Assembly (NCBI RefSeq): GCF_000004075.3
Contig: NC_026660.2
Coordinates: 620,001 to 684,000, forward strand
Source: Cucumis sativus
Taxonomy: Eukaryota; Streptophyta; Magnoliopsida; Cucurbitales; Cucurbitaceae
Length of the DNA: 64,000 bases
Direction of reading: 5' to 3'
Shown here one piece after another: positions 1,174 to 55,140 of the stretch. The translations under genes were made by a program, and so were the position numbers. The notes beneath the pieces are model-generated. The model saw nothing but the letters and a program-made list of their open reading frames with translations. It ran no database searches and was not told where the DNA came from. The first letter of the stretch is position 1, and the number at the start of each line of letters is the position of its first letter.

Positions 1174-2517
1174 TCATCCATGAGTGTTCACAGCTTCCCA
1201 GAGCAAGTTCTTAGGAACAGGATTGGTCAAATCTCTAGCTTGCAAAGCAGCTGTTCTAAGAGTTCTAATGGTGCGGACATTAGCATCCCAAAATGACAAG
1301 CTTCTGTATGGAAGATTGTGTTTCTTGCAAAGTTCGACCACAATTGGAGAGATTTTCCTCAACTGGCATCTGGGCATCCTTGGGAATAAATGATGTTCTA
1401 GCTGAAATTGCAATCCACCAAAAAACCAATCCATCCAAGTAGAACAAGAGATATCCAAAGTCCCACTTGCTTGCTTCTCAAACCAATCATTCCCAGTGGG
1501 CTTCCCAACATAAACATTAGCAGAGAAATGGTTGAGGCAGAATTGGATGTGCTGTAGAGAACATACAGCAAAACTTGCAAGAACAAACATGACTCTCTCA
1601 GGCCAATTAGGGAGATAAGAAACTAGAAGAGGAAACCATGTCCAAAAGACAAGAATCCCCATTATGTTCAATGCTCTATCAGGAACTTTTCTAGTGGAAA
1701 ACAAGAGCAACAACGTCTGCACAAAGAGATTCACTCTAGCCACACACATCACAGGGTAAAATGTGAAATGCTGGTAGCTAACAAAGAATCTAGCCAAGGA
1801 ATCAAACTCCAGCTTCCTACCATAGAAATGAGATGTCAAAGTCCGGAAGAAACTAGTAGAAACAGCAAAAACAGGGATGTGTTGAAGATCTGGATCGTGG
1901 TCAAGGCTATTGCAGGAGATGTGATGAGCATTATGAGTCCATTTCCACCAGGCTATACTAATCCCCGTCAAACAATTTCCAGACAAAATTTGAGCCAATT
2001 TGTTAAATCCACGACTCGACATTACATTAGAATGTCCAGAATCATGACCCACATAAGCACTTTGGATCCAAAGCATACCCAAAATCATAGCACAACCCAA
2101 ATGAACCAAAACGCTCTCCGATTTCAAGACCCCATAAACCACAAGAAACATCATCACAGCAACAGAAATCAAAGAATACATAGTAACATGCCCCTTCTTC
2201 TCAAACAAACCTTGTTTGGAAAATTCAGACGCAAGCTTTCTGTAATCCTTAGAAATCTCCGAGACCTGAAAATCCTTGAGATGAAATCCAGTAAACAACC
2301 GATCCAAATACGCCCAAGCGGTGCCAGGATGATAAGCAATGAATGCATCGGTCACATCATGACCCGCTAAATTGATAAAAGGCGTATCACCACCAGGATG
2401 TTCTTTAGCCCATTCTGTGACATTATAGACCTTACCCTGAATAGAGATCCATAGATCTCCTGGTTTGTTGTGCTTGAGAAGCTCCTCAGAGGTAATGTAC
2501 TTCTTCTCCACCTCCAT
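1174..2517 (-). CDS. SLD1: Delta-8 sphingolipid long-chain-base desaturase (cytochrome b5 fusion)
   Basis: This intronless gene encodes 447 residues, the usual length of plant SLD proteins (about 449). The family introduces the delta-8 double bond into the long-chain base of ceramides in the ER membrane, taking electrons through its own cytochrome b5 domain. Visible features: N-terminal cytochrome b5 domain with HPGG at 40-43 and the second haem histidine near H63; hydrophobic segments around 115-155 and 280-325; three histidine boxes, HDSGH (158-162), HNAHH (195-199) and QLEHH (372-376). Gln in place of the first His of box three is typical of front-end desaturases. The start is the ATG at 2517-2515; the frame runs only two codons further, to a TTG. 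The leader contains a long A tract on the coding strand. The nearest gene, the xylosyltransferase, is divergent and about 11 kb away. A delta-6 fatty acid desaturase would look similar, but in a non-borage eudicot the sphingolipid role is far more likely. Confidence 0.95.
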   Translation of the reverse strand: MEVEKKYITSEELLKHNKPGDLWISIQGKVYNVTEWAKEHPGGDTPFINLAGHDVTDAFIAYHPGTAWAYLDRLFTGFHLKDFQVSEISKDYRKLASEFSKQGLFEKKGHVTMYSLISVAVMMFLVVYGVLKSESVLVHLGCAMILGMLWIQSAYVGHDSGHSNVMSSRGFNKLAQILSGNCLTGISIAWWKWTHNAHHISCNSLDHDPDLQHIPVFAVSTSFFRTLTSHFYGRKLEFDSLARFFVSYQHFTFYPVMCVARVNLFVQTLLLLFSTRKVPDRALNIMGILVFWTWFPLLVSYLPNWPERVMFVLASFAVCSLQHIQFCLNHFSANVYVGKPTGNDWFEKQASGTLDISCSTWMDWFFGGLQFQLEHHLFPRMPRCQLRKISPIVVELCKKHNLPYRSLSFWDANVRTIRTLRTAALQARDLTNPVPKNLLWEAVNTHG

Positions 2518-2616
2518 ATCCAAACCAGACCTTCAAAGTTTGGTAAAAGGAGATCAAACAAAGAAAACAGGAGAAACCCAGATGAGAATAAAAGCAATTT
2601 TTGGAAGGTTTCTTCG

Positions 2617-2635
2617 TTTTTTTTTTTTTTTTTTT
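2617..2635. repeat. T19 homopolymer in the desaturase leader
   Basis: A run of 19 T on the plus strand lies about 100 bp upstream of the desaturase ATG. It would be an A19 tract in the 5' untranslated region if the transcript starts further upstream. Confidence 0.7.
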
Positions 2636-2839
2636 CTTATCGTGGAGTTGCTTTGGATGGAAAAATGCAACCCACTATTCGGAGAAGAGAGGGGGGGAAG
2701 TTGGGTTCGATTGATTCAGAATCTAGAATAGTGTGAACCCCTCTTTCTGAATTGCATGTTGCATTTAGGAGACTTTAATATAGAAAAGAAGAAAGGGATT
2801 CGAATGAATGAACAGAGAAGAATGAGAGGTCGTGATTGT

Positions 2840-7015: not shown

Positions 7016-7088
7016 GGGGATGTAGCTCAAATGGTAGAGCGCTCGCTTTGCATGTGAGAGGTACAGGGTTCGATCCCCTGCATCTCCA
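7016..7088 (+). tRNA. trnA-UGC: tRNA-Ala (anticodon UGC), copy 1
   Basis: A 73-nt cloverleaf. The acceptor stem pairs GGGGATG with CATCTCC and A is the discriminator. The D-arm carries the A box (TAGCTCAAATGGTAGAGC). The anticodon loop TTTGCAT has TGC at 7049-7051. The T-arm has GGTTCGATCC. There is no intron. The anticodon stem has one G-T wobble, which copy 2 lacks. A CAA motif lies just upstream, as is common for plant nuclear tRNA start sites, and T runs downstream fit a Pol III terminator. Confidence 0.95.
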
Positions 7089-9747: not shown

Positions 9748-9820
9748 GGGGATGTAGCTCAAATGGTAGAGCGCTCGCTTTGCATGCGAGAGGTACAGGG
9801 TTCGATCCCCTGCATCTCCA
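9748..9820 (+). tRNA. trnA-UGC: tRNA-Ala (anticodon UGC), copy 2
   Basis: A 73-nt cloverleaf identical to the copy at 7016-7088 except for one base in the 3' anticodon stem, which here gives a fully Watson-Crick stem (CTCGC with GCGAG). The anticodon TGC is at 9781-9783. CAA lies just upstream, and T6 directly downstream acts as a Pol III terminator. It has the same orientation as copy 1, 2.7 kb away. Confidence 0.95.
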
Positions 9821-13378: not shown

Positions 13379-16300
13379 ATGCCGTCGGTCTTGCACCAAA
13401 GATCCACTCACAGCTCACTTGCAAATTCATATCCACTTTCTCCTCGTTCTTCCTCGAGTTCTGAAAGATCATTTTCCATATTCAGTCCTATAAACCTACT
13501 TGCTCTGCTTTCTCTCATTGTGATTCTTGGAGTCTTCTTGCCCTGGATGAATATACAAGAGAGTATTTTCTCAAGCTCCAAGGTCTCAAACTCTAAATGG
13601 CGAGAGTACTCATTGGCTGAAGCTGCGTCGTTCGTTGCGAGGAATGGGACTGTGATTGTTTGCGCTGTCAGCCAACCCTACTTGCCCTTTCTCAATAATT
13701 GGTTAATTAGTCTTTCTCGGCAGAAGCACCATGAGAAAGTTCTTGTTATTGCTGAGGACTATGCAACGCTCTATAAAGTGAATGAACGGTGGCCAGGGCA
13801 TGCAGTGCTCGTCCCACCAGCTCCTGATGCTCAAACCGCTCATAAATTTGGTTCTCAGGTATGCTTTCATGAATTTTTTTGCTATCAGTTTTGATTGGTT
13901 TTTTCTATTTGAAATGATAATTTTGATTGCTATATAAACTTATAATCAGTCTTTGTTGCTTCTCTGTTAAATATTTCATCGCATTTAACATTGCCTGGGC
14001 AAAGATGTTTTGTTATTGCAACACTAGTCATAACATTTCGTACTTGAATGTGTTTTCTAAACTTAAGATTATTTCATAACTTTTATATCCGGTCTTAATT
14101 TATGATTATTAATATTACTACTGTATAACTTTCATATAATGCCTTAAATTTCAATTGATATTATGTGATGGCATTTCTGTAGTGATACTTACCCCATGAA
14201 GTATAGAAGCTTCAATTTTATTGCTCCTTCCATCACTTACTAATTTGATCTTCAAGTCATCAACATCATCTCTCTCTTTGTTCTCTTTGTATGAAGCATT
14301 TTATAGAACTCAAGAAACTCTTTCTTGAAGCATTTCTTTGGCCATCGAGAACATGTTCACTCAATTTCCTTCCCATCAATCCTGCTTTGCCCTGTCTCCT
14401 AATTTAACTTCTCCCTTCTCATGCTCAGTTCTTAGATGTATATGTTTGATCTTTAGCCAAATTCATTGCCTGTATGAAATGAAAATGATGGCATTCACTT
14501 TGTAGGGATTCTTCAACTTCACATCCCGGAGACCACGACACCTACTACACATTTTGGAGCTTGGTTATAATGTTATGTACAATGATGTTGATATGGTATG
14601 GCTGGCTGATCCATTTCCTTATCTGCAAGGGAATCATGATGTGTACTTCACAGATGACATGGCTGCAGTATGTACAACTTTTCTCTCTCCTCCTCCCAGT
14701 GCAATGTTTGTGGAAATGGATTGCTTGCATGCTTGCATATAAACTCTAATTTATTATCTTTTTGTTCTTTGGGCAAGAAAGAGAGTTCATATAAGTCTGA
14801 GATGTTTAAATGCAAATGGTGGAGGACTTTAGCTTCCTGATGAAAATTTGTACATTTGCTTATTTCTTTGATCAATCTATAGATTTGACTTGAACATGTG
14901 GTACTTACAGATCTCCAGTTTAATAGTTTGAGAACTTGAGAAATATGGTGACACTACTTCTTAGATTTTGATGAAAAGTGTTTGCATTGTTGTTCAACAA
15001 CGTGCACTAGCTTCCTTTTAATTTTGTCCTCACCTCGTTACAGGTAAAACCATTGCACCACTCTCATGATTTGCCACCTCCGGGGAAAAAGGGCCGCACT
15101 TACATATGCAGCTGCATGATTTTCCTACGTCCCACCAGTGGAGCAAAACTGGTCATGAGGAAGTGGATTGAGGAACTTAAAGCTCAGCCATGGTCCAAGG
15201 CAAAGAAGGCAAATGATCAACCTGCTTTCAATTGGGCACTAAATAAAACTGCTGGAGAGGTTTGTTTTTCTAGTCTTCTAGTTTTCAATATCATATCCTA
15301 ATTGAGCTGCTAGGATCCCATATGATAGCAATTAAGCTTACAATACATGCATATATATAATGAAAGGAGCATAAAATTTACACCATGCGAGAACAACAAA
15401 GGAAAGTGAATTGTCAAATTATCAAATGATTACATTAATTTAGTTAAAAGTTGCAAACTATGATACTTCCAGTTCCAATAGGTGAATATAAAGAAAGATT
15501 TTGCTTTGTCTTAGTGAATGCACCGTGAAAACCGTAATGATACCAGTGGTCATACCAGCTTGTTGGGGCTACCCAAAGGATGAAAGTTTGGAGAGTCGAA
15601 TAGAAACTGAGGTTCATTTACTGAATTTCAGCTTCCAAACTGAGTCTTCTCAAGTCAAGACCCATGTGCTTGATCTTAGTTTTTAAAGACCAAGCTTTTC
15701 ATTTTACAATTTCTTGGTCTAGATCTTTAACCTTTTAACAACTTTTTAAAGCCTACAGAGTATAAGTTTTTGGCTTATTCTGTTTCACCCTTCAAAAGTT
15801 GGTTAATCTCCAAACGGGTTTCTGCCTGAAACTCAGATCCTTACATTCTTCGAATTGGCAGTTGAAATCTATCTTAAAAACTTCCAAAGGGGACTAAATT
15901 TGCAGTGGGGACTGGTCGAGACACAATTTTTTTTTCCTTTTCTGAGGGCACATTGAATGGGATATTGTCCTCCCCCATTGTATTTTCCTAGTTTAGACTT
16001 TGGTTGCTGGACTTCTAACATCCATCTTCAACTTTTGGAGCTCCTCTCACTGCTCTTTATTGGTGCAAGTGTGATAAATTAAACGCCCTTTCACAGATAT
16101 GGTATTTCTTCTTTGATTTTCAATTTGGGATCTTTCACGTTGGTTAAGTCTGTCTATTTAATTTCTCTACCAAATTGCTTTTTTCTTTTCTAGAAAGAAG
16201 AAAGAAAAATTATCACGTACTTGGAACCTTTGAAAATGGAAATCCTAGAGTAGGGGTTTTCGCTTGACGCTCCCTTCCGTTTATTTCTAGGATGAACCAG

Positions 16301-17486
16301 ACAATTAGGGACTTTCTTATATCATCCTTTTTTCTATAGGCATTATTGATGAAAGTGGGGTGGATAATCCCTCATCTTTCATTTGGTATGGAAAAGTTTC
16401 CAAGTTCCCCCAAAATTACCAAATTCTCCGAGTTCCCCCAAAGTGTTGCATTTTCTTGTGAGAGTTTGTTCTTGGCAGGATTAGCAATTTTGTCTTAGAG
16501 AAAAGACGCCATTTTCTTTCCTTCTTCCCTGGCTGGTCTTACCTGTGTAAACAGAATTTGGAGACTCACTCAAGAGTCAATACCATATGTTCCTCTCATG
16601 CCCTTATGCTCGTCTTATATGGTCATAGTTATTGCAGATTCTTAGCATCTCCTCCCTCACAAATTGACAAGTTTGCTTCCCATTTTCGTAGGAGGTTTTC
16701 CTTTAAAAAATTAGAAGAAATTCCTGTGGCTTCAACTCGGGTGGGCAAGGGATTTCTTTTGGTTAATTTGGTTAGAAAGAAGCAATGAGAAAAAAATTTA
16801 AAGGCTATTTTTAGGAATAGTTCGTTGTTTTCTGCTTTCTTGGTGTAAATTCTGCGTTCCTTACAAAAAGTTTAATTCTCTCATTGCCACTTGGAAGACT
16901 CTGTAGTAACTTTCTTTGATTGGGGCTTCGGGCTTGGCTTTCCTCCCCTTTTTTTATTTTTAATTTCTTATTTTATATGAAATGGTATATTGCTTTAATT
17001 TACAAAACTATTAATATATAAAATTTTGGTTAGGATTTTGAAAGTAGATTATTTCCATCTTTTAGTCAACTAAGCTGCTAAAACCAACTGATCCAGTAGT
17101 TTGTTCATACAAGGCCCTTATTACTTGGATTAGATCTCTTAGCTATTCCATGTATGAGGGAAGAATCCTTCAATAATTTTTAGTCAATATGAGACAATGT
17201 ATATTAAATTTTCTTATGAAGAGAGACTGTGCATTTTAGATAACTACCTAAAAATGGTTACATTGATGATACACAGGTGGATCTATACCTGCTGCCACAG
17301 TCAGCATTCCCAACAGGTGGATTATACTTCAAGAACGAATCATGGGTTCAGGAAACCAAGGGAATGCATGTTATTATACATAATAATTATATCACAGGGT
17401 TTGAGAAGAAAATTAAACGTTTCCGAGAATTCAACCTGTGGTACGTGGATGATCATACTCTCGAGTCTCCTCTTGGTCGAATATGA
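13379..17486 (+). CDS. MGP4: UDP-xylose:L-fucose alpha-1,3-xylosyltransferase, MGP4/RGXT type (GT77)
   Basis: Exons are 13379-13858, 14506-14667, 15044-15259 and 17277-17486, all joined in phase 0, giving 355 residues; Arabidopsis RGXT proteins are about 360. The family adds alpha-1,3-xylose to fucose in the side chain of the pectin rhamnogalacturonan II in the Golgi lumen. MGP4 is needed for pollen tube and root growth. Visible features: serine-rich cytosolic tail (1-35), a single signal-anchor membrane segment (about 38-58) typical of type II Golgi enzymes, the metal-binding DVD motif at 187-189 (NDVDMVW), and the conserved NDQPAF motif in exon 3. The start is the first in-frame ATG; the frame extends 44 codons upstream without one. 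Intron 3 (15260-17276) is long and carries a decayed LINE tail. The GT4-like gene follows in the same orientation. Confidence 0.93.
16120..16960 (+). mobile_element. Decayed LINE 3' end inside xylosyltransferase intron 3
   Basis: Pieces in shifting frames resemble the reverse-transcriptase-associated zinc-binding domain at the C-terminus of plant LINEs. There is a VKSVYLIS-like piece near 16145, a QYHMFLSCPYARLIW piece near 16580, and an LLSWCKF...LIATWK piece near 16830-16905. They lie in the expected order on the plus strand, interrupted by stops and frameshifts. No 5' half, poly(A) tail or target-site duplication was found. It is related in type to the LINE at the right end of the window. 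Confidence 0.5.
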
Positions 17487-22178: not shown

Positions 22179-22256
22179 ATGGAAGCAAATGGGTTCACTG
22201 GAAAATGGATTTCCATTGAAGAGAGACCCACTTCTTCGTTCTTCATCGAGTGTTAG
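22179..22256 (+). other. Upstream ORF overlapping the GT4-like gene start
   Basis: An ATG 10 nt before the presumed main ATG (22189), in another frame, opens 25 codons that end at TAG 22254-22256, inside the main coding region. A scanning ribosome would meet this ATG first. A downstream shift in translation efficiency is inference. Confidence 0.5.
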
Positions 22257-25200
22257 AGGGGAAAGATACCCATTTCTGCAGAGACCCAGATCGAGGTTTT
22301 CACGGTTTTTGTTTTTCCGGAAGATTGATTACCTGCAATGGATTTGTACTGTGGCTGTGTTCTTTTTCTTTGTGGTTCTTTTTCAAATGTTCTTACCTGG
22401 ATCAGTCGTGGAGAAGTCTGAGGTTGCTCTTAAAGATGTGGAGAAAAGTTTAGGGGATTTGAAGTTTTTAAAGGAGCTGGGCATGCTGGATTTTGGGGAG
22501 GATATTCGATTTGAGCCGTCGAAGCTTTTGGGGAAATTTAAGAAAGAGGCAAGAGAAGCGGACTTCTCATCTTTTAATAGGACAAGAAGTCGTTTTGGGT
22601 ATAGAAAACCTCAGCTTGCACTGGTAAGTTTGCTACCACAATCTTAGCTATATTCAGGAATTAGTTCAAATCTTGAGCTCTTGCCATTGTTGTTCTCATT
22701 TAGTTGTTTTCTCTGTTAATGCTTGCTTTAAGTTCTTCCATGGATTCTGAATTCATCTCTCTTACTTCATTGTCTTGTGTAGATTTGACAGTACATATGA
22801 GTCTTATACTTCAATTGAATATTACTCAATTCATGTCTGATGTCGTTCATATTAAAATTCCTTTTAATGTCATTGTCTCTTTTGTAGGTATTCTCAGATC
22901 TTTTGGTCGATTCTTATCAAGTGCTAATGGTAACCATTGCATCTGCTCTTCAGGAGATAGGATATGTATTCCAGGTAATTCGTTTTTGTAAAGACCAGAA
23001 TGTAATAGTTGTTACAGATTGTCTTCTTTAATCCCGATTCACCTTCTATTATGTAGTTTAGTTTTTGTGGGATTTGTTGGTTAGGAAAGGAGTAAGCATG
23101 CAGTATTCCTGGAATTCCCAACTTCAAATATCTTGATGCTGTTAATACTTGATACTGTTGATACTGCTGTTCTTCATACATCTTTAGAATTTCCTCACAA
23201 TTGTTACTGCCTCGCTGGCCATTCTTATCTTTGATTTTGTTACTCTATTTGTACTTAATAGGATAATAAATGAGAAACACTGTTGGTTTTTTTCTCTCTT
23301 GAAATCCTATGGATGAACATAAGTTGACGCTATCGAACAATGCAACATCAAAATATAAAGGTTGTATCGTTGTAGGCTACACTTTGCTGCAGGATGTTGA
23401 CTTAAATATTATTGTGAAGGCATTTATGAATTTGTTCACCGTTCTATACTTGATACCCCCCCTTATTGCTATATCATACCTTATCCTCTTCGTCTTCGTA
23501 GATGCATATTTGAAACTACATTATTTGCTCAGAATTCAAATATTATTTTTCTTGTTTTGTTGACTTGCCAAATTAGAAGTCTAGAACTAACTTCATCAGC
23601 ATAAAGTTGCCTTATTTACTTTATATGACATCTGCCATCATCTGCCATGGAAATTATATACACAAGCATATAATTGGACAATTCAACTGTTTGCTCTACA
23701 GGTTTATTCTCTTCAAGGCGGGCCAGCAAATGATGTTTGGAGGCAGATGGGAGTCCCAGTAACTCTAATTCAAAGTTGTGATGAGACTGAGGTCATGGTT
23801 GATTGGCTAAAGTATGTTAGTGCTACTTATCTCAATATTTTGACCGAATGACATTTATCTCTACAACGTTATATTAAATTAGTTATGTCTTGTTTCTTTT
23901 TCTAATTATTTTTATGATGTTTTTTTCCAGCTATGATGGCATACTTGTGCACTCTCTTGGAGTGAAAGATGTCTTTTCCTGGTAAGAATGAGTTTGGTCT
24001 CTCCCCTTTCCCTTTTTCTATTTCCCCACCAAGAATGAGTGTAGTCGTTTGATTGTCATGAAAAAGTATACTGCTTCATAAAATGTTGGATTGGTGTTGC
24101 CATTGCTTTAATAGAATTACCATGAGTTACATTCAGAAAAGATGGTTCTTCGAAAAGATGGTTCTTCGAAAAGATGAACTTTGGTTTCATAATTGGGGGA
24201 GAATTTCCGTAGTCTTCTGTTCATTTGTGCCTATTCTAATAGAATTACCATGAGTTTTACATTCACATTCAGTAAAGATACCGATTCCATCCTTGCCAAG
24301 ATACCCAAAATAGGCCCTTGCAAAGTTAAACCACAGGACTTCCTTTTCTTTGCTGAATCAAGAGATTCCATCTGCCTTAGAGGGCCTGTTCGTAAGGCGA
24401 CGGCCCAACTAAAGTTAGATAAGCATGGTTTCCAAAATAAATCAGCAAAGGTGCATTGTACAAAAAGATGGCTGATTGATTCTTCTTCACTATGTTGGAG
24501 AAGGACAGAAATTGGGAGAAATAAAGACCCAAGGACTGTGCCAGTGAGGCCAAGACTAAGCTCCCATAATTTTTATTTTTTTATTACTTGTTATTATTAT
24601 TTTTGAAATGAGATTCTTTCTGCAAAGAGTTGTAGAAAGCCTCATGAAGTTAGTTCCGCAAAGAGTGTTCACACAAAACTGGGAGCTAATGACTAATAAT
24701 ATGTACCGTTTTAAACTAAATTTGATGACTTAGGGTTAAATCATCACTTTTTGAAATGCCAAAACTGAAATAGAACCTTTTCTAATCACTCAAAGGACTA
24801 AAAGGGTATATTCTTTTATTTTTTGAACTAAGAAATAAATTTTGTTCATGTTCCCTTGATTTTTATAGTATAGTTCATTTTTCCTTTCTGTTTTATTGTT
24901 CTCTGTTTACCTTTTTGCAGCTAAATTTGTCTTCTTATTCCAAGAATTGCATATAATATTTCCATCATCAATCCATCTTATTTGTACTAATAATTTGGCA
25001 ATATGCAAAACTCTATTATTTATTTCAAGGAGTGGTGTTTCTTGTCGCAGCTATCTGCAGGAACCTTTCAAATCCTTACCACTCATCTGGACCATCCATG
25101 AAGAAGCCCTTGCCATACGATCTCAAAACTATGCGTCAGATGGGTTACTTGATATTTTAAATGATTGGAAGAGAGTATTCAACCATTCAACTGTTGTCGT

Positions 25201-32002: not shown

Positions 32003-35000
32003 TCAAGCTTTTATGCGACCATTCAACGTATGATGTCTTGACATAGACACGCCACATCCCCGCCTTTGTTTCTTCTTCCTCGCCAGCCTTTTTTCCAAGT
32101 CCTTCACTCTTCCACTCAGTTTAGATATGATGGCTATCTGTTCTTTGCCAGCCTCCATCAACTTATCCACCATCTCTCTCATTTTCTCATTTTCTTCAAC
32201 CAGTTTTTCGTCCATCTCTCTGTCTCTTACCAAATCATGCTTGTCCACCGTCTCCCGCTGGGCATTCGGCAAAGCAGGTAGGGACACTTCACCCATCTCA
32301 ATAGAGGTTGCTTCCCCAGTAGCATGTAACTCGTTAGCCTGGTTATCTAACTTGCAGGATGGGATATGTTCGAGTACACATGGGTCTTGTAGCACGTCTT
32401 CTGCCATTTTATTTTTCGTATCTGCAGTTTGTTGTTCATTTTCATTGGTTACCATCTCGTTTTTTATGTTCTCATTACGGTAGGATTCTGATAATTCCCC
32501 TAGCGATTCTGCAGATTGATCACATGCTCGTCTAGCCTGGTGGTTGTCCCACTCATCTTCCAGCACCTTCTCCACCTCATCTGTCTGTTGTCTGTCTTCA
32601 TCGGTTAACAATTCGTTTTGGATGATCAGGTCATCATTAGAGTTTGATTGCTCCCCTGGCAGTGCTGCAGATTCATCAGGTGCTCCTTGCTTCTCAGTAG
32701 GGCTTCCGTCACTATCTAGTTTGACTGCTAAATTATGTGAATTCTCTTCAGCCTCTGATACCCCTCTCCTCATCTCAACGTGCTCAAGCTTGTCAGTTTC
32801 GGGTTTATTTGAATTGCCATCCTCTCTCATTGGAAGTTCCATATCTGCAGCCTTTTCATAAGGTGTTGAAATGGTTATCTTATCAATTGCTTCAGGTGTT
32901 TGTCCTGCTTGTGCTCCCACTTGATCATCAGAATCGGGGCTCAAAACATGAACTTCCAAAGAATCTCTTACAGGATGGCCATCTTCTGAAAAATATCGGT
33001 GATGATGTAAAGTTTCTTCATTCATGTCCATTTGAAGAACTTCATCTACATTTTCCTCTGCATCATTGACCAGCTTCACATTCTGTTCCATCTCAGCTCC
33101 TGATTCATCCTCATCTGCTCGCTTTTCCCCCATTAGCGAAGGCATAACTTCTTCACCCTCGATTTGGTTGGAGAAGTATTGAGAAGACAATCCGGAGGTA
33201 TCTTCATTTTGACACCCATGTTCTCTCGGTTTTGCAAGTTGTTCTGCTTCAGACATGGTATTTTGATCGATTACTTCCTGTAACTTGCCATGTCCATCCC
33301 TTGTCGGCTCAAGTTCTTCGCCTGTGGAGGCCTTCATGCCTGCAAAGCCAGCCATATCGTCAACTCTGACAAGAGTTTGAGCTTCATGCGACTCCCCCAA
33401 AAGACTGTCGCTTTCATTTACCCCCTTGGGAAAGATTTCACCGGTTGATACTACATCCTTCTGCTCCTGCTCCTCCTTTATGTCGTCATGGGTTTCCACA
33501 TCAAAATGCTCAGTAGGTTTTTTTATGGAGGCTTCAGGTACTACTTCTGTAGGCTTGTTAATCACCATGCAGTCAAGTTTTTCCTCAAGAGCTACAAGTT
33601 CTTTTGCCAAAGATTTCCGAAACTCCCTTATACTTGGATGCAGACCCTATTGAACGCAAAAGTAAAGAAGATAACTTAGGATAGGCCTTCAAATCTATAT
33701 TTTAGTTTCAATTTAACAAAACGTAATTGATAAAGGATAGAGAGGGAATCTTAAATTTTAAATCTACTTCAGCTCGAACTGCGTTTAACCATGGATGGAA
33801 GAGAACTATACATTCTAAAACCACAGATATGTTCAGACTAAGATTTTCAAGATTTTAACAAATTTATTTTCACATCCATGGCCAGCAATAACTACTCTAC
33901 ATTTTAGAAAGATAAAAGTTACCACTAAGCAATAAAGGAAGCCAAGGCATTTTGCAGCAGGAGTTTCCAAATATCGTTTATGCAATCATTTTTCTAAAAA
34001 AGGAAAAGTAAAAATTGAGCGTTGATAAAATACCTGTATGGTGTCAAGTTTTAGCAACAGTCTCATTATCATTTCTCCAACAAACAATTGTTCTTTCTCA
34101 TCTTGAGGAGCCAATTCCAGAGCTTTCACTCGATTTTGAACCTCTATGACCTTTTGACGAACTTCAACAAGTTGCTTCATTTTTTTCAGAAGTTCCCATT
34201 TCCTAACTCCATAACCACGGTAAGCTGACTGAATAAGCACGGCTGCTTCATTATCTGACAAGTTAGGTTTTTCAAGTTTCCCTTCTTCCTGAGCTGAGCC
34301 CCCTGAGCTTACCTCCAATCGTTCATCGACTGCCTTCTCAGGAGATGCTTTGCTTATTGCTTTGTCTTTCTCTCCATATTCTTCCCTGTGACTTTCCTCT
34401 TCTTCTTTGCAGAGCTTGTCAGCAGACTTCTCTTGAGACTTAGACTGCGTTGGCAAGCTTAGTGGCTCTCCAGTGCTAGAGACACTCTCCTTGTCCACTT
34501 GGTGATTACCATCAGGGGTCTCATGGGTTTTCACCTCTACAGTCTTGATGATCTTTTCACCATCTGGCTCTCCAGTAACATTATTGATCTTTGAATCCAG
34601 TTGAGAACTTCCCTTCACAGCAGTCGATTGTGGAGAACTCGACCTTGAACTGCCGTTGCCATTTTTTTTCTTTGCAGGAGGATCCACTCTAAGACAAACA
34701 GGGGGCAATCTTGATTTCTTTGGCGAGGATGAAGATCGTCCTTTCACATTATTTCTAGACAGTTCCTCCTTTTCCTCATTATTTTTTACAGCCTCCACAG
34801 GGATGCATCTCCTTTCTTTATTTTTCTTGGTGTCTTCAGTTTTGTGAATCATATCCATTTCAGGAATATTGATCTGATTTACAGTCTTCACAACTTCAGG
34901 ACCTTCACTTGTAGCATCATCTTTTTTCAGCATATTTGTTGGCACCAACTTCCCAGCATTAAAAGGTTCATCACTAGGTCTTGCAGGAGCATCAAGATTT

Positions 35001-35851
35001 TGAACATCAGCTTTTCTAGCAGCCTCCTCTCTACCAAAAGCAGGCATCCAAATAACAGGAAATGGAAACTCTTTCTTTATGTCCTCCTGTTGCTTATTTT
35101 GCACACTTTGGTCCCCCATGCCTGCTGCATCAGGCAAGAATGATCCAAGGCGACTCAAATCAGACAGAGGCCAACCACTACAGAGCTTCGGAGCCTGTTG
35201 GAGAGATTTCAAATTCTCCGTCAAATTCAAGCCACGGCGTTCCTTCTCCTGCTTTCCATTTCCAGTTTCAGAAGGCTCTCTCTCTTTTTCACTCCCCACA
35301 TGGTCAGGCGGAATCCACACAATTGGGGGCTGGTTATTTCCTAATTGAAATGGAACCAATGACCCCTTCCTTTGACTGTCCGGTTTCTCCTCCTCAATCT
35401 TCACACAATTCTCTCCCTTCTGGTTCTGCCCACACAAACTATTAGGACAGCCACAGCAGTGACGATTCCTCATCATGCTCTTATCAAACTCATATCTGGG
35501 CTGCTCAACGTTATAATGCGTGGGAGGAACATACCGGACATAATACGGTTCGGGGCAAGGTGGGTAGCCACCGTAGCAGTGCATATGCTGATGGGGTGGA
35601 ACAGGAAGATGCGATGGTCTAAAATTACAACAACCAGGGAGGAAATTACCACTATTACAGCAGGAATAAGATGGCATTGGGTACCCACAATGCCAATAAT
35701 TACGCCCAGAATCATGAGGAGGCATACATGATTTAGTTGGATCCATCATCGAGTAAGAAGGGATAGTTTCCATGCTCGGATACTGATAAGTGAAAGGTGT
35801 TGTACTTTTCTGGAATGGATTTGAGTCCATGTACCTGTACATGGGAATCAT
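32003..35851 (-). CDS. BAG6: BAG family molecular chaperone regulator 6-like (IQ + BAG domain)
   Basis: Two coding exons, 35851-34034 and 33646-32003 (phase 0), give 1153 residues; Arabidopsis BAG6 is about 1043. BAG domains bind the Hsp70 ATPase domain and act as nucleotide-exchange co-chaperones. Plant BAG6 also binds calmodulin and is linked to heat response, immunity and autophagy. Visible features: Pro/Tyr/Cys/His-rich N-terminus (1-160), long low-complexity middle, IQ motif (IQSAYRGYGVRKW, 540-552), and a BAG helix bundle (about 556-635) split by the only intron in the coding region. A very acidic tail with an internal duplication (about 929-962 and 981-1014) follows, then a C-terminal coiled coil (about 1075-1130) and a basic end. 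The start used is ATG 35851 (MIPMYRYMDS...). A leader exon at 36593-36800 is also open and in frame and could extend the protein. It converges on the GT4-like gene. Confidence 0.93.
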
Positions 35852-36592
35852 TTTCTCTATTTGATCTGAAGTCCACAAAAAGATCCAATAGGCTTACAGG
35901 ACAAATAATAAGCCTGCTCAGCTAACACAATCCTTAAAATTTTTGTTATTCCTGTAAAAGTGAATTATCAAAATCACATTTTAGAGAGACGTTATGAATG
36001 TCCAGGCAATAAATATACTCAACAACAAAACATTATCATACGATGCAGATTGTCGCCCCTGGACCCGACTCGCTGACCGGGCAGCGAGACCCGTACTTGA
36101 TAACAAATGGATTCATAGCATTCCAACATCATTTTTCTGTTAATGTCTTTAAGAACAGAATAGAGAGTAATTTTGATCTCATTCCATGAGTTTAAAGCCT
36201 TTAAATTGCAACTAATACCTTCTCAAGTCCGGGATAGAAAATTGTTCATGACAACGAGTAACTCACCCAAATTCAAGTAACAATGAAAAAAAAAAAAAAA
36301 CCCAATCAAAAGAAAGCTAAAGAAATGGAAACTTGCCAGACTGACTCATAAAAGGATAGGATGGGTTGGATATAAATTAATCGCAGCACTATTCAGGATC
36401 ATCAATTCACATTGAATTTATAAGAAAGAAAAAAAACAAAGATTCAAATCCCATTTTGCATTTGGATAACAAAAGGGCGCGATTCAAGTTCCACATTTCA
36501 AATTGGAGAATTTCGAGAAATGAAACATGAACTACACAACACCCAATTCAAAACAAAAAACGATAGAGAAAATAAAGAACAGTATAACTCAC

Positions 36593-38633: not shown

Positions 38634-39000
38634 AGATGCTTAAAGAATAATAATTAGTTCTATAAATCTAATTTTTGAAAATGGAAATGAAAATATTTGA
38701 ATATATCTACAAAACAATAGAAAATGTTTTAGAGTTCAATAATTGTTGGTGTAAGATCAAATATTCAAATTTTAAAATGAATAATCCATGTATTATTCAC
38801 CAAGTGATGTTGACTAACAAGGCAAATAGTTAACCTTATAATCGCATGCTAGTTATAAAATTGATAGCTCCAAAAATACGACATTTAATTTTAATAATGC
38901 TCACGAATGGTAAAATAATCTTTAATTTAAGAAAAAAATGTTATTTAGAATTTATTTGATAGAGTGATTATAATTTGTGGCAATCTTAGAAATAATAATG

Positions 39001-41875: not shown

Positions 41876-44800
41876 ATGAAAGATCCCAACACTGATTTGT
41901 TCGACCCCAGAGCCACGATTGACTCCGATTATCTTCTCAGTGCTTCCACTTCTTCCCGGGATTCTGATTTTGGGTTCGCTTTTGACGATAGTAACTTCTC
42001 TGATCGTTTGCTTAGGATTGAAATCGTTGGTGGGTCTGATGAAACCGACCCGGAATTTGGTGGGTGTAGCAGTGTCCTCGATTGGGCTCGTCGAAAGAGG
42101 AGGAAAGAGGAAAAGAAAACGGAAAATGGTGAGTTTTCTACTTATCTGTTTTCGTTTCCCTTTTTGTGTTTCGATAATTATTCTTTTTTTGCTATATTTA
42201 GACTAGTTGGATTACTGTAGCTAGCTCCATTACCGATTCTGTTTTGTGAGGAACCTTGAAGAATTTGTGAAATCTATTTCTTTCTAAAAATAATTGTGGG
42301 TTTTAGGGCTGTTTCTACTAAAACACCAGAGTTTGTTAACTCAAATCTATCTGGGTTTATGGATTTTCTTATGTGGGTTAGACCATGTAGAAAATCATTT
42401 TTCGAATTCAGAATCTTGGTTATATGAGTTCCCGTTGGATGCACGTTGAGCTGAGGAAACGAAAGAGGAAATGTACGAATTTAAAGTCTACGCTGTTAAT
42501 TTTAATCACACGCTTCTGTTCTTTGGCGAATAACAGATTTTACCACGGTCCATGTTCTTTATTTTATATTCTTTATGTAAAGAACACTTATGTTGGAGTT
42601 TTTAATTTTCCAGTTGCCACGAATGGCAATTTTTTTCATTTTTTTGTTCATACTGTACACAGTTTTGTACCGGGTTTCTAATATTAAAATGTTGGTGTTG
42701 AATGGTTATAATGGTTGATGCTTCCTGAAAGAATAAATAAAGAATAAGGGAATTGGTTACTTTGATTTTAGTTGTCTAAGGAAAACTGGAACTTTTCTAC
42801 AGTCTCTTTAAATGTATAAAATATTGGAACATCGAGAGATCAATTTATGTTTTCAGTGTGGAGGTTTTTTATTCTCTTCTAATATTTCAGTTGGGATTAC
42901 TTTCTTGATGCATTGATGGTTTAACCTTTCTTTTGACCATTTCTTGCATAGAAAAATTGACTGGAAAAATTAATTCCTTTTCCTTTTTTCATTCAGCTTT
43001 GGATCTCAGTAAATGCCCACAGCAGCAAGTTTTAACCTGTGATCAGCCTGATATGGTCGATGTCTTGTCCTTCGAAAATCCAGATGAGGGACCTGTCGCA
43101 ATGATTGAAGAATCACTATCAGGTAATGGGAAATCTGTTTAGAATTTCAGCAGTCGAATACGAAGTTGATATGATCAGGTTCAGGCTTTTATCCAAACTT
43201 TCGTTTGATTCATGGAAGTGTTATTGTAGGTGATGAAGGTGCCAATACCAATGATTTAAATTTGGATTCTTCTACAGTGATGAGGGTGAAGACTTTGCAT
43301 ATTAGCTCTCCTATTTTAGCGGCCAAAAGCCCATTCTTCTATAAGGTAAAGGTTAATTGCCTTTTTTGGTCTTGTTTCATAACCATCGTGCATAACAATC
43401 CCAAGACAGTTTCTTGCTCACTCCATCTTTAAACTTTTAGCTCTTCTCAAATGGCATGAAAGAATCAGATGAACGGCTTGTGACCTTACGGATCAATGCC
43501 TCAGGTGAGAAACAACATAAAAAATTTCTTTCCAATTGAAAATTGTTGATTGATTGTTTTTTGGTTTTGTTATACAGAGAAATCTGACTTTCTATATGAT
43601 CTTTTTTTACTTGGAACAGAGGAAGCTGCTCTGATGGAGTTGTTGAACTTTATGTACAGCAATAGCTTATCTGTTACCACAGCTCCTGCTTTATTGGATG
43701 TGCTAATGGCTGCCGATAAATATGAGGTTTCTTCATGCATGAGGTATTGCAGTAGACAATTGCGAACTTCACCTATGACACCTGAGTCTGCACTGCTCTT
43801 TTTGGAGCTTCCTTCCAGTGTTTTAATGGCTGAAGCCGTCCAATCACTGACTGATGCAGCAAAACAGTACCTTGCCACTCGTTATAAAGACATAACTAAG
43901 TAAGTTCACATTTCACCTGAAGATCATTTTTTAAAAATTATAATTATTGTTTTTCTCGGTATTTGATGCTCTGTGATCTATTGGTTTAACCCTAAGGTTT
44001 GTTCTCTGTTACTTTAGTTATTTTTTTGTTGTTTCTCCTTTGTGATCGTTTGTAGGTTGTTTTCCCTTTTGTGCTACTCGAGTTCATCTTTGTTTAGTTT
44101 GTTTGGATGATATTGTCTTTTGTTTATTTTGCTCTTAGTATAATACTATTGTACTTTGAGCATTAGTCTCATTTATTATTAATAAAGGGACTTGTCTTCA
44201 TTTCAAAAACATCTAGATTGACGCACGTTTGAAATTTATGACCTATCATCGTTTATTCCATCCATTCTTCTATAGTCTTATTTGCGAACTATAAAATGTT
44301 AAAATCTACCACTGAACTGTGATTTTGACTTGTCTGTTATTTTCTAAACATCAATGTCAATACTTTTCAAGTTTTGTAACCTCTTAGACATAAAAGTTGA
44401 ATGTTTTGGGCCACCTATTGGACACTTTTTCAAATTTAGGAAACCATGCATACGCAAACTTGAAAGTTTAGGGTCTAAACTTGTAATAACTTAAAATTTT
44501 CAATTGAAAATTTGAGCTGGTCCGGATATCAGAGAAGTCAATCTGAATAAGTAATCCTGAGACATTGTGAATTTGAATTTCCTCCTAATGTAGATCATAT
44601 TATTACTTGGAAAGGACTATAGGTGTTACTTGAATCGTACTCTTTATGCCTTCTTTTGATGTTACATTTTATGCGGCACGTAATCTTTTTGGTACTAAAT
44701 CCATTGGGTATGTAACAGCGGCAAAGTTAGATCTTTCCATAAGGAGACAAAATTTCACACTTTGACTATAATGCATATGTCAGGCACCAAGAAGAGATAT

Positions 44801-45597
44801 TACTGTTTCCGCTTTCTGGGATAGAGGCAATATTATCTAGCAATGATCTTCAAGTAGCTTCAGAGGATGCAGTATTTGACTTTGTTTTGAAGTGGGCGCG
44901 GGCACATTATCCTTTGTTAGAGGAGCGGCGAGAAGTCCTTGGTACTCGTCTTGCTCAATTCATTCGCTTTCCTTTCATGTCCTGCCGGAAGCTTAAGAAG
45001 GTATTGACATGTATTGACTTTGATCATGAGGCTGCTTCCAAACTTGTGCTTGAGGCACTCTTTTTCAAAGCTGATGTTCCACACAGACAGCGAGCCTTGA
45101 TTACTGATGAGTCTACTTCTTCAAACCATCGGTTCATTGAGAGGACATACAAGTATCGACCTGTAAAGATCATTGAATTAGAACTTCCTCGACAACAATG
45201 TGTGGTATACCTGGACTTGAAAAGAGAAGAATGTACAAATTTGTTCCCATCTGGACGAATTTATTCTCAAGCATTTCATTTGGGAGGACAAGGATTCTTC
45301 TTATCTGCTCATTGCAACATGGACCAGCAGAGTTCCTTCCATTGTTTTGGATTGTTTTTGGGGATGCAGGAGAAAGGTTCTGTGAGTTTTGCTGTCGATT
45401 ATGAATTTTCAGCGCGATCAAAGCCGAGCGAAGAGTTTCTCAGTAAATATAAAGGCAACTACACATTTACAGGTGGGAAAGCAGTCGGGTACCGAAACTT
45501 GTTTGGTGTACCCTGGACTTCCTTCATGGCTGAAGACAGCGTTCACTTCATTAATGGCATTCTTCATCTAAGAGCAGAGCTTACCATCAAGTCATAA
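41876..45597 (+). CDS. POB1: BTB/POZ-BACK protein, POB1/LRB type (CUL3 ubiquitin ligase adaptor)
   Basis: Six exons, 41876-42128, 42997-43122, 43230-43345, 43441-43504, 43620-43899 and 44784-45597, keep frame and encode 550 residues; Arabidopsis POB1 is about 561. LRB/POB1 proteins are nuclear substrate adaptors for cullin-3 ubiquitin ligases; in Arabidopsis they act on phytochrome/PIF signalling, and relatives restrain cell death. Visible features: acidic N-terminus, basic nuclear-localisation cluster [11 protein letters not shown] (71-81), BTB domain (about 135-245, including [18 protein letters not shown] and [12 protein letters not shown]), BACK domain (about 265-380), and a C-terminal domain with repeated Trp/Phe/Gly motifs. 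The upstream open frame lacks an ATG, so 41876 is the start. Intron 4 has a second, in-frame acceptor at 43577 that would insert 14 residues. A pyrimidine-rich leader precedes the gene and a long palindrome lies 400 bp after the stop. Confidence 0.94.
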
Positions 45598-48756: not shown

Positions 48757-48852
48757 ATGAAACCCATCATCAATTTTGCCCTTGAAATCAGAAATTCTGG
48801 TTTGCTTTTCAAGAAACAGCTTATTTGATTCATGGGTTTTGCTTCTTACTGA
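48757..48852 (+). other. Two leader uORFs of the DUF1191 gene
   Basis: uORF 1 (48757-48828) encodes 23 residues. uORF 2 (48832-48852) encodes six residues, MGFASY, and its stop overlaps the main start as TGATG (TGA 48850-48852, ATG 48852-48854). The layout would allow termination and re-initiation at the main start. Whether both lie in the transcript is inferred. Confidence 0.5.
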
Positions 48853-49748
48853 TGGAACTAAGGAGAAACTGGTACGATTCTAACATCTGGGTGGTGTTTT
48901 TTTGTTTATTGATGTTGATCTCTTGCTCTGTTTCTTTTGAAGATGTGGATTCTTTTAATGGGTTTGTTCATAAATATGCCAATAATTCTTTGTCAAAGCC
49001 TAGAACAGGGATTGTATATAACATCTCACTGCCTTCAAATTTTTCTGGGATTCAAGTTTCTTATATTAGATTGAGGAGTGGTAGTTTTTGGGTTAGAGGA
49101 GCAAATTTGAGATGGATATCTATTCCTCCAAGACTTACTTCTGTTCCATATGTAAAGAGACTAGCCATAATTTTTGAGAATTTAGGGAATTGGTCTTCAA
49201 CTTTCTACAAAATACCTGGTTATACTCTTGTTGCTCCTGTGATTGGGTTCACTGTTTATGATTCTTCTACGAATTCAAGCACATTAAGCAATAAAAAACT
49301 CCATTTAATCATCTTGGGAAGAAAGCCCATTTTAGTAATGTTTCCTAAAGTTGAAAATAGTGGGAAGAAGCCACAATGTGTGAAGTTTGGAGCTAATGGA
49401 ACTTATGAATTGAAGAACATGACAGGACCAAATTTTTGTTCTGCAACTGATTATGGTCATTTTTCTCTTGTTATTCCAACTCCTTCAATTGAGAAGGAGG
49501 AGAAGAAGAAGAGGATGTTGTGGGAATGGTGGGTGGTTGGATTTGGTTGTGGTTTGCTTGTGTTAGCTTTGATGGTTGTAGTTTTAATTACAGTTTTGAG
49601 GTTAGTGAAGAAGAAAAGCATCAAGGGTATGGAGAGGGAAGCTGAAAGAGGAGTGAGTTTTGATAATGTTTGGATTGGTAAAAGTAGAATGCCTTCTGCT
49701 TCAATGGTAAGAACACAACCATCTCTTGAAAATAGTTATGTTCCTTGA
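48852..49748 (+). CDS. DUF1191 family type I membrane protein
   Basis: An intronless gene of 298 residues. I recognise the plant DUF1191 family (for example At4g01140, At3g08600), whose molecular function is not known to me. Visible features: a signal peptide (about 1-28), an extracellular domain with conserved words GIVYNISLPSNFSGI, RLRSGSFWVRGAN, VPYVKRLAIIFENLGNWSS and PVIGFTVYD, several N-glycosylation sequons (NIS, NFS, NWS, NSS, NGT, NMT), one membrane segment at about 226-252, and a short basic cytosolic tail with Ser/Thr. The topology suggests a cell-surface protein. The start is ATG 48852; the open frame extends only nine codons upstream, to a TTG. The gene converges on the GDSL esterase gene. 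Confidence 0.9.
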   Translation: MELRRNWYDSNIWVVFFCLLMLISCSVSFEDVDSFNGFVHKYANNSLSKPRTGIVYNISLPSNFSGIQVSYIRLRSGSFWVRGANLRWISIPPRLTSVPYVKRLAIIFENLGNWSSTFYKIPGYTLVAPVIGFTVYDSSTNSSTLSNKKLHLIILGRKPILVMFPKVENSGKKPQCVKFGANGTYELKNMTGPNFCSATDYGHFSLVIPTPSIEKEEKKKRMLWEWWVVGFGCGLLVLALMVVVLITVLRLVKKKSIKGMEREAERGVSFDNVWIGKSRMPSASMVRTQPSLENSYVP

Positions 49749-50890: not shown

Positions 50891-53578
50891 TCAATCTAGA
50901 GGTTGGAGATGACAAAGATTTTGAAAGGAAAAGGGAGGGTCAGAATAAGAGCCATTAAGAATAGCCAATGCAACAAGTTTGTTTGCAGCTTCTGTGGCAT
51001 GAATTCCATCCCAACTTACATAGTTATATGGATCAGAGCAAGCTGTTGCTGTTAAGATTTTATTGTTTATCTTCTTACTATTTCCACAAAGAATTGTTGG
51101 GTCAAAATTATAGGGTCCTCCACCATGACCACAACAAGCTTTGGTACTATATTTAAGACCTGCTACCCATCAAATAAAAGCAACAACCTTATGTTAGCAT
51201 GTTTGATAATGATTTTAAACAAATCAAATTTGAAAACTGTGAAAATATTGTTGGTTTAAAAGTGCGAAATGAAACTTTTTTTTTAAAATGGAAGAAGTAT
51301 TTATGTAATTTTTTTTTCTGACTTATGTGCTTCACTTGAAAAATAATTTTCTTTCGAACAAATATACCTTAGAATGATACCGGAAGAAAATACCTTTTAA
51401 ATAAAACCACCTTTTTCTTAGTTAGCATCTTCGAAAAGAATTTAAGTAATTTATAGTATCTCGAGTAAAACCATTTCTTCGTGAAAGAGATTGATAAGAT
51501 ATCAAAATTGATAATTTTTAGTAGTTGGATACATCGATTCTCGAGAGGAAACACAGTAACCCATTTTGGTAGTAGAAGCACAACTTTAAAACAATTTTCC
51601 TAAAAGATGTAACCTAATGCATAATTAAAAGCATTTCAAGGAAAAAAAGATGATAAACCAAAAGATATTCCAAAACTTGCCGTTATTGTTTGTTGGGTTT
51701 GAAAAAATATATATATATATACAGACATGACCTAATCAAAGTTGTTCTACTTGATCCCAATAATTTGAATTAAGTGATGAGTTTAACTCAACCTAACCCT
51801 ATTAATAACCATATTAGTATATACTTTGGAATTGGATTAGGTCTGTAGAGTATTATTATTATAGTTTTGAGAGTAATATTTCTTTCCTTTCAAGACCTAC
51901 CCTAAGCAATAAATCAATGTTATTAGCATTATTATAGTTTTTTTGAAATATAATTTTTTTAGAACATGGTTTGACTTTTCACATGTTTAATTGAAGTCTT
52001 GATCTATATAGTTTGAATTTGTTTATATATATATATATAGAAAAAAACTTTTTTGAATAACTTTTCCAAAACATAGCTTGAATCTTGAAAGTTATCTCAC
52101 ATCACTAGATTTCTCAACCACCCCACCCTCCATATGAGTAGATACATGCTCTAAAACTGATTCAAAACGCGTAAGGTAATTGGAGAAAAAAGAGAAACAA
52201 GAATCCATATACGTACCATAAGAGTTGGGATGTTGAAAGAGTTGCAACAAAACAGAGTGAGTATCGAAGTAAATGAGTGAAGCTTTAGGGAGGGTGCTTC
52301 TTGCTCGCTCCAGCTCTTTCTTAAGCATGGCATTATAGTCTGTTACAGCTTTATTGTAAGAGATAAAGCAGCCATATTGATCAATGTCTGAGCTTTCAAG
52401 TGGAAGCTGAACCAAAAGGGCAGGATAACACCCCACCGGAGCCATATTCATTACTAGAAACGTTTCTCCTCCCAACTTGTATAGCTCCTGAATTACAAAC
52501 TAACAAATTAAACTTAAGTAACAATTATAGTTCACTTCATCCAAGATAAATTGGATATGGTCAAAGACTTGGTAGTAAAATTTCGAAGTGCATCAAAAAA
52601 ATTGAAAGTGAGAAATGACATGATGGAGAAAAAGAAAAAAAGAAAAAAGATAGACTAACCTTGATGGTATCAATAATTTGGGAAACAACTTGAGGAAGAT
52701 ATTGGTTAACACCTTGAATTCCAATAGCTTTTAAGTTGGAGGTGAAATCATTTTGACCAATGTAGAATGTATACAATGCCTTTCCAAAGATGTCCGGTGC
52801 TGGAAGTTGGCTCCATCCTTCATCACCTACATAAACATTATCAACATCTACCTATTAGGAATGAATTAAAAATAATAATTAAGATATAGCTACCAAAATC
52901 AAAATCTATACGTGATAGATAACTTTTTTTTTTTTTGCTAGTAAACTCTTATAATTTATGAGCGTTATACAAATATTTACAACATAGTCTATCAACATCT
53001 TGTCAAATTTTGCTATATTTACAATTATTACATATATATTTTTTAAAACGTCAAAAAAAAAATTGTTTTTAATTTTGAAAAAGTAAAAAATCATTTTCAA
53101 GTACTTATAATGAATGATAGTGACTATAATTTGACATACGATACAATAATGGATGAGATATTTCATTTAAAGACTATTTTTGTTATGCTACATTGGGGAT
53201 ATATATACCCAATAAGTTATTATTATTATTATTAATACAAATTTTAGTAGAAAATTTGAAGTACAAATCTCTTGGTTCACAGTACATGCATACAAATGTC
53301 AATTGAGTTAAACATTTGTTGGTATCGTGGATATCATCGTGTTATTAATTCTTACTAGTCTTTAAACAACATGTCATATCAACATTTTGGCATAATGCAG
53401 TTAATAACAACAAAGATCTATTCCAATTTCAAAGTCACGACTATTTTTTTAAAACCAATGATTATACAGGCATAAAACTAATTAATAACTTAAATAAACA
53501 AAGTATGTATTAGAAAGTGAAGAGAAAAGAAAATGAGGATCACCTTTGAGAAAGGAAGAAGAAGAAGAGGAAGAACAA

Positions 53579-53610
<32 letters not shown>

Positions 53611-55140
53611 ATAGTATTCATCAACTCTAAATTTGAATTCCTTCATTTGGTTGAGCTGAATGGCCAAAGAGAAGGGGCTAATTCCAGTGACAAATAAGGA
53701 AGTGTTTGGCAATAACACTGTTGAAGCCAATGTTGCAAAGTTTGCTCCATGTTTGAAATCTGAACCTATTGCTTTCAGATATGGGCTTATAAATGGAAGT
53801 CCAAGCGAGTTAGCTGCACTTCAACCACTCAAATAGGTTACAACTTGAAACAAGTTATTTGAAATCCCAGAAAACAATAAAGATTGATAAGAGATTTAAT
53901 TACATGCTTTACAAACGAAAGAAGAAAGAAGAGATCACTCTTTATTATTAGAAAAGAAGAAGTATCATAAAATATAGATTACAAATTCATCAATCGGAAG
54001 AAAGAAGTTTATATAAAGCATATTTGATCTAAATAACCTCAAGTCCTAAATTGTGTAAGTAACACATAAACAAATACAAAGTAGATTTTAGGGGCATTGT
54101 TGATCATTTAGAGCAATATATATAATATCACACATCCAAGACATTTCAATTACATTGTTATAAAAAGTAACAGAAAAAAATAACATGTACGACTAAACTA
54201 GTTCAATAAATATACATGCACGACTCATCAACAAGTTGAATGTTCGAGTCTCTCGCTTGACTTGTACTAAAACTCACAATTATATCACAAATTTTATAGT
54301 TTAGTAGTTATATTAAATTATTAATAAACCATTACATCAACTCACTAAATATCTAAGTTGTTATACTAGACTATTATAAAATTATCAAATTGTGAAGAGA
54401 TGTGTAGCATGATTGGAAAATTTTCATTTAATTGTATTATAAGTTTATGATAATGATCAGATCATATGAGAAAGATAAGAAAGATGTGAAATAAGTCCAT
54501 AGGTGTAGGACCAGATAAGGTTCAAAAGTTCCTCATTGGCCATTTGAATTTGATGGTCAAATTGGCAAAGTACTCTTCTTTTTAAACTCAATACCTTTAT
54601 GTGGAACGATGTGCTTGCCAATATTCTCAAAAGCATCTTCAAGCAAAAAGAAACCCACTACCTTTTTTCTCAATCTCTTTCTTTGATAAATTAAACAAAG
54701 ACTAATTAATTATCATCTTTAGTGTCTGTAATATGCATATATGGTCTCTTTAAAACCTCCCTAGAAACCACAGGAATCAAAACAGTCATGGGAAATTTAT
54801 GTTTGTTAAAATAAAAAGAGTCGCGGTTAAACATTTGGGATTTGTTTGAAAATAAGATCACTAGAAGAATATTACCAAGGAAATCGATAATGAGCCTTCC
54901 GTCGGTGGCACGGCCGGTGGGCTTCTTGAAGAAGGTCATGCCATTAGGTTCATGTTGCGGAGGAAACACTGCCCAAAACCCGCCGGTGTCGGAATTAGAG
55001 TCACCGAAATTGAAGATGGCTTCAAATTTGCATTTCGAATGTGGCGTGGCCGCCGCAGATGGTGCTGTAACGGTAAGTAGAATAAGGAGAAAAATGTTGA
55101 AAAATGGAGGGGAAGATTGGGACGGGAAAAGGAAAATCAT
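50891..55140 (-). CDS. GDSL esterase/lipase (At4g01130 type)
   Basis: Five exons on the minus strand, 55140-54876, 53813-53544, 52826-52660, 52487-52217 and 51159-50891, keep frame and encode 413 residues. GDSL/SGNH hydrolases cleave acyl esters; plant members are usually secreted to the cell wall. Visible features: a signal peptide (about 1-31), block I FNFGDSNSDTGG with nucleophile Ser48, block II GANFAT (111-116), block III GQND (202-205), and block V WDGIH with Asp375 and His378. All catalytic blocks are intact. The C-terminal region has CCGHGGGPYN and many cysteines, as in ENOD8-like members. The extra length over the usual 380 residues is largely a run of 18 Ser and one Cys at 157-175, encoded by a GAA-type microsatellite on the plus strand. 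The gene is divergent from the S-protein homolog, with 541 bp between start codons. Confidence 0.93.
52900..53050. repeat. Partial relative of the fold-back element in GDSL intron 2
   Basis: Contains GTGATAGATAAC, AATATTTACAACATAGTCTA and TTTTGCTATATTTACAAT, words shared with the interior and right end of the element at 39001-39202. Complete inverted ends were not seen. Confidence 0.4.
53554..53610 (-). repeat. In-frame trinucleotide microsatellite coding poly-serine
   Basis: Mostly GAA/GGA/ACA-type triplets on the plus strand, read as TCT/TCC/TGT on the coding strand. They give 11 Ser, one Cys and 7 Ser in the GDSL protein (residues 157-175). Confidence 0.9.

Follow-up and report, generated by a model that had tools for sequence, protein, structure and literature searches.

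A cucumber gene neighbourhood whose counterparts appear to be spread over several Arabidopsis loci

Gene content of the window

The window analyzed here is a stretch of 64,000 nucleotides of the Cucumis sativus genome, C6:620001-684000 on the 31.1-Mb contig C6. It carries seven genes in the order SLD (-), MGP4 (+), GT4-like (+), BAG6 (-), POB1 (+), DUF1191 (+), and GDSL (-). Gene models were built with a simple home-made splice-aware predictor that was trained on the long open reading frames of the window, and some of the models were refined. All seven families were found by Pfam, each above its cut-off, using models or exons from the window. The original prediction had placed these genes in this same order, with outer coordinates of 1174 and 55140; order and place are borne out by models and Pfam for 7/7 genes, and both coordinates match gene models. 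The MGP4, GT4-like, and GDSL proteins submitted to Pfam were trimmed by hand, by which MGP4 and GDSL lost doubtful exons, and exon ends are approximate in MGP4, GT4-like, BAG6 (first exon), GDSL, and POB1.

At the left edge, a single-exon gene for a sphingoid long-chain-base delta-8 desaturase (SLD) is modeled on the minus strand at 1174..2517, with Pfam matches to Cyt-b5 and FA_desaturase. The interval from SLD to MGP4 is gene-poor but holds two tRNA-Ala (TGC) genes, at 7015-7089 and 9747-9821, which are alike at 74 of 75 bases. The MGP4/RGXT-like xylosyltransferase gene follows on the plus strand (13379..17486; models and Pfam Nucleotid_trans), and its middle exons are uncertain. The GT4-like gene encodes a large glycosyltransferase and is made up of many exons at 22189..31042 of the plus strand, as judged from an open reading frame, a model, and a Glyco_trans_1_4 match for which the first 466 residues served as the Pfam query. 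Its 3' end is approximate, as the open reading frame reaches 31042 and the predictor model adds a doubtful exon to 31777. The BAG6-like gene on the minus strand consists of two long exons supported by open reading frames and models (32003..35878 or slightly past) and an uncertain upstream first exon. Both Pfam domains, IQ and BAG, lie on one of the long exons, and the other is without a Pfam match. A tRNA-Gly (TCC) gene is found on the minus strand at 38561-38634, between BAG6 and POB1.

The POB1/LRB-like BTB-BACK gene is modeled on the plus strand at 41876..45597, with Pfam matches to BACK and to part of BTB. Only the second half of the BTB domain was detected; two small exons of the BTB region are absent from the model, and the frames of both are visible in the sequence. 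The order is completed by a single-exon DUF1191 gene (48852..49748, plus strand; Pfam DUF1191) and a GDSL esterase/lipase gene, for which the models give six or seven exons (50891..55140, minus strand; Pfam Lipase_GDSL). Past this last gene lie an S1-type self-incompatibility-like (SPH) gene (56559..56930, plus strand; Pfam Self-incomp_S1) and a SAUR-type gene (60054..60584, plus strand; Pfam Auxin_inducible). The end of the window, 62072-64000, contains retroelement-like fragments. On the minus strand, an integrase-like piece matches Pfam rve below the cut-off; it is adjoined by reverse-transcriptase-like pieces on the plus strand, which were named by eye. Five other pieces of this stretch returned no family from Pfam.

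Genes flanking the window

In the 100 kb on each side of the window, coding-like stretches were listed and named by eye, and some pieces were run through Pfam. On the left, malectin-like, protein kinase, BPS1/ROH1-like, aminotransferase, LEA_2, and reticulon families were matched above the cut-off. The top match of the kinase exon among solved structures is MPK4, and the aminotransferase is read as an ACC synthase. Pieces of the left flank named by eye as RIC1-like, LCB kinase, golgin, and RING gave no Pfam match or one below the cut-off, and so did flank pieces named RRF and ARPC5. The Pfam matches of a left-flank HMA piece are all below the cut-off and lie in its low-complexity part, and a DUF2358 match on a flank piece is likewise below the cut-off.

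To the right of GDSL, the S1-type gene, the SAUR gene, and the retroelement-like fragments are followed by genes for a UDP-glucosyltransferase, a GT47 protein, and a selenium-binding protein. Further right are an AMP-binding enzyme, an amine-oxidase family gene, ankyrin, Rad21/Rec8, and COP9 subunit 3 genes, and DUF7950 genes; the AMP-binding enzyme is read as AAE15/16 and the amine-oxidase family gene as PPO2. The selenium-binding protein and AMP-binding (AAE-like) genes stand close together, from C6:694001-704000 rightward.

Arabidopsis counterparts

Extracts of the literature give SLD1 as At3g61580 and SLD2 as At2g46210 (PMC3900917), MGP4 as At4g01220 (PMC12168206), LRB1, LRB2, and LRB3 as At2g46260, At3g61600, and At4g01160 (PMC12965291), and a GDSL-motif lipase as At4g01130 (PMC10592298; PMC6726743). 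At4g01210 and At2g46240 occur as bare codes in a list (PMC4714525, in part), as does At4g01140 elsewhere (PMC6428040, in part). For families of the left flank, similar extracts give MPK4 as At4g01370, MPK11 as At1g01560, and MPK12 as At2g46070 (PMC4511077), BPS1, BPS2, and BPS3 as At1g01550, At4g01360, and At2g46080 (PMC5793164), and RTNLB5 as At2g46170 (PMC2996939). Of the ten locus numbers in the original prediction, seven are printed with a matching function in these extracts and three as bare codes. We take these three to be BAG6 (At2g46240), DUF1191 (At4g01140), and the GT4-like gene (At4g01210), LRB2 to be POB1, and AT2G46270 to be GBF3. Further counterparts of the left flank are presumably ACS1 (At3g61510) and ACS2 (At1g01480), the golgins At2g46180 and At3g61570, the LEA gene At2g46150, RTNLB6 (At3g61560), and the RIC1-like gene At3g61480.

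With the paralogues presumed here, the At2g codes printed in these extracts rise along C6 in 5/5 cases (46070, 46080, 46170, 46210, 46260), and the At4g codes fall in 5/5 (01370, 01360, 01220, 01160, 01130). The At3g (61580, 61600) and At1g (01560, 01550) codes of the same extracts agree, with two codes each, for which a one-way run says little. The counterparts RTNLB5, At4g01130, BPS1-3, and MPK4/11/12 are presumed ones, with a possible bias towards a fitting order, and with paralogues chosen in this way the one-way runs are no independent test. GDSL, DUF1191, BTB, reticulon, and glycosyltransferase genes all belong to multi-member families and the Arabidopsis paralogues are presumed ones, so that the whole could be a chance neighbourhood of gene families with locus numbers that match by coincidence or through biased choice. 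We hold this to be extremely improbable in view of the one-way runs in At2g46 and At4g01, with five codes each among those printed in the extracts. For either run, five codes would fall in a one-way order by chance in 2 of 120 cases, a figure that is too favourable to the degree that paralogues were picked to fit. The neighbourhood itself seems to reach ~85 kb further left of the window, where the MPK and BPS1-like genes seem to add a fourth Arabidopsis locus, At1g01.

On the other side, extracts give SBP1 as At4g14030, SBP2 as At4g14040, and SBP3 as At3g23800 (PMC9962204), and AAE15 as At4g14070 and AAE16 as At3g23790 (PMC4722043). As the SBP and AAE locus codes fall in both At4g14 and At3g23, the cucumber selenium-binding/AAE pair fits these two places. 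To the right of GDSL, close to the edge of the window, the order shared with Arabidopsis seems to run out, and the change in content, if there was a single one, falls between window position 55,140 and C6:699,772. A gene near C6:761 kb that was read by eye as ARPC5, with no Pfam match, runs counter to a clean break. Its counterpart would presumably be At4g01710, and the SAUR gene, on our assumption, might go with At2g45/At3g60.

Related places on C3 and C5

The genome searched comprises 226,625,048 bases in 88 contigs. Its only paralogue of the last POB1 exon lies on C3 at 7.094 Mb and is 82% identical. Two GBF-type (MFMR) pieces are found on C3, 17 kb from this paralogue, and none of the seven genome matches to GBF lies near POB1 on C6. 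In Arabidopsis, LRB1 (At2g46260) and AT2G46270 adjoin by number, according to extracts of two papers (PMC12965291; PMC4811886). The top BPS1-like paralogue is also on C3, at 7.310 Mb (54%), together with the second-best of eight non-self reticulon matches, at 7.206 Mb (53%), and the POB1, GBF, RTNLB, and BPS1-like matches on C3 all fall inside 217 kb. The probability that a best paralogue comes by chance to within 217 kb of one particular site in a genome of 226.6 Mb is ~0.002. Between POB1 and GBF, a coding-like stretch on the minus strand at C3:7097648-7098343 has a weak match to a mitochondrial ribosomal L28-like protein, below the cut-off.

The best non-self match of the reticulon is on C5 at 1.402 Mb (53%), and that of the MPK gene on C5 at 1.526 Mb (89%), the latter from a search in which 150 of 635 candidates were scored, many of them other kinases, and from which no match other than the top non-self one was taken into account. 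These two matches are 124 kb apart, and the C5 place consists of these two genes only. No MPK match was found at the C3 place among the 150 candidates scored of 635. The genome search gave no match for BPS1-like or POB1 at the C5 place, and none for DUF1191 at either the C3 or the C5 place. C3 and C5 have only the reticulon in common. By itself this gene is weak evidence, as several of its eight non-self matches come close in strength to the two at these places. Anchor genes pair C6 with C3 through POB1, BPS1-like, and RTNLB, and C6 with C5 through MPK and RTNLB. The same genome has partial sister places of this neighbourhood, on C3 and, more weakly, on C5.

The remaining genes have distant or partial relatives elsewhere. 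Five other matches to SLD cover just 45-81 residues of the cytochrome b5 part. The first 286 residues of MGP4 have two distant partial matches (29-31%), one GT4-like exon has two partial matches (42%), and the 237 residues around the BAG domain of BAG6 have one distant match (36% over 72 residues). DUF1191 has three other copies of 31-38%; C4 carries two of them and C5 the third, at 2.17 Mb. An 80-residue golgin piece has no match elsewhere in the genome. SLD and BAG6 are without a close paralogue and POB1 has one; extracts for Arabidopsis give two SLD and three LRB genes (PMC3900917; PMC12965291).

Age of the copies

The C6/C3/C5 pairs are old. Synonymous divergence between copies is saturated or, on short alignments, 1.7-2.5, with bootstrap ranges that run into saturation. 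The last POB1 exons of C6 and C3 show 0.80 synonymous differences per site, and the BPS1-like pair has a dS of 1.86, for which the bootstrap range begins at 1.2 and reaches saturation. For the MPK exon pair of C6 and C5 the dS is 1.66, and the full MPK models, which are approximate, give 0.78 synonymous differences per site; the reticulon values, on 55-64 codons, run from 2.4 to saturated. A cucurbit tetraploidization was reportedly described by Wang in 2018. An extract of a further paper ascribes to cucurbits both a tetraploidization of their own and the eudicot hexaploidy (PMC6856369). Because of saturation, synonymous change gave no date for the copies and did not separate tetraploidization from hexaploidy.

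The great age of these copies bears on two readings of the shared order. Order that appears to have lasted to the point of saturated synonymous sites between cucumber copies might have been kept by selection, for example through shared regulation of neighbours, and not by passive retention alone. This is quite improbable, as no function shared by the gene products is evident from Pfam, the strands of the genes are mixed, and Arabidopsis has separated the genes, going by the locus codes in the extracts cited. The second reading, a variant of the explanation preferred below, concerns which duplication is seen. It is possible, but not probable, that the At2g46/At3g61 and At4g01/At1g01 pairs are sisters from gamma, the core-eudicot triplication, without a later duplication in the Arabidopsis lineage. 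On this reading only one of the pairs would have the window as its direct counterpart, and, just as tentatively, the window would look interleaved because cucumber lost fewer genes from that copy. The related C6, C3, and C5 places with saturated or near-saturated synonymous change are in keeping with this, and so is MPK4, which is marginally nearer the C5 copy than the C6 copy. The MPK4 entry in the structure collection, presumably the Arabidopsis protein, differs from the C5 exon at 8/114 residues and from the C6 exon at 10/112, a difference too small to decide. Pointing the other way, a single apple gene, MdbZIP35, is described in an extract as syntenic to both AT2G46270 and AT4G01120 (PMC4811886), which fits a later split but is no proof of it. 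Interleaving alone does not tell the two cases apart.

A probable ancestral neighbourhood and its copies

The preferred explanation, which we consider very probable, is an ancestral neighbourhood that was duplicated in the Arabidopsis lineage and then fractionated, with a fuller copy kept in cucumber. The window region and the Arabidopsis At2g46, At3g61, At4g01, and At1g01 segments would share a common ancestor, which whole-genome duplications in the Arabidopsis lineage would have copied, with a split of the Arabidopsis pairs at either beta or gamma. Each Arabidopsis copy would then have lost different genes, so that the survivors are now dispersed, with the old order preserved at every place. 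In cucumber, one copy, consisting of the window and ~85 kb to its left, would have kept a fuller gene set and may be regarded as a relatively complete retained copy, with the sister places on C3 and C5 having kept other subsets. The shared order would have broken off beyond the GDSL gene, on its right side, and a shared function of the neighbours would not be required. We infer the duplication history, as well as the common descent with Arabidopsis, the latter from locus numbers, some printed and some presumed. We regard this as a real but ordinary case of fractionation.

The original prediction had seen in the window a gene block split over three Arabidopsis loci and retained in its pre-duplication order. 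That several loci are involved agrees with the printed codes in the extracts (7/10) and with the apple bZIP synteny, but with the left flank they seem to number four and not three. The order is pre-duplication relative to Arabidopsis only, as cucumber itself has the sister places on C3 and C5. Nor is the window an intact pre-duplication segment: GBF pieces accompany the C3 copy of POB1, but of the seven GBF matches none is close to the C6 copy, an absence that reflects either loss or later movement. We find it doubtful that the four Arabidopsis segments represent two different core-eudicot triplication copies and that C6, C3, and C5 are remnants of all three. In that case almost the entire pre-triplication gene set would survive in the C6 copy.

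Comparison with known systems

The locus offers a compact illustration, open to checking, of an ancestral neighbourhood that may have been dealt out over several Arabidopsis places. It would help in assigning one-to-many counterparts between cucurbits and Arabidopsis for SLD, LRB/POB1, BPS, and the MPK4 group, and it marks a place where shared order seems to break off; the general view is unchanged. The apple gene MdbZIP35 provides a parallel, as one gene there ties At2g46 and At4g01 loci according to the extract, although it concerns the neighbouring GBF gene, which in cucumber was seen beside the C3 copy of POB1 but not beside the C6 copy (PMC4811886). The cucurbit-common tetraploidization, described in an extract for wax gourd and other cucurbits, has left old paralogous segments, as C6 has with C3 and C5, but the ages of the C6/C3/C5 pairs are not distinguishable here from gamma (PMC6856369). 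There is also a likeness to the fractionated whole-genome-duplication blocks of Arabidopsis, in which one outgroup region corresponds to several segments that each hold an ordered subset of its genes. These blocks are named alpha, beta, and gamma. The present case is of the same kind; it seems to involve four segments, and its outgroup region is itself a duplicate.
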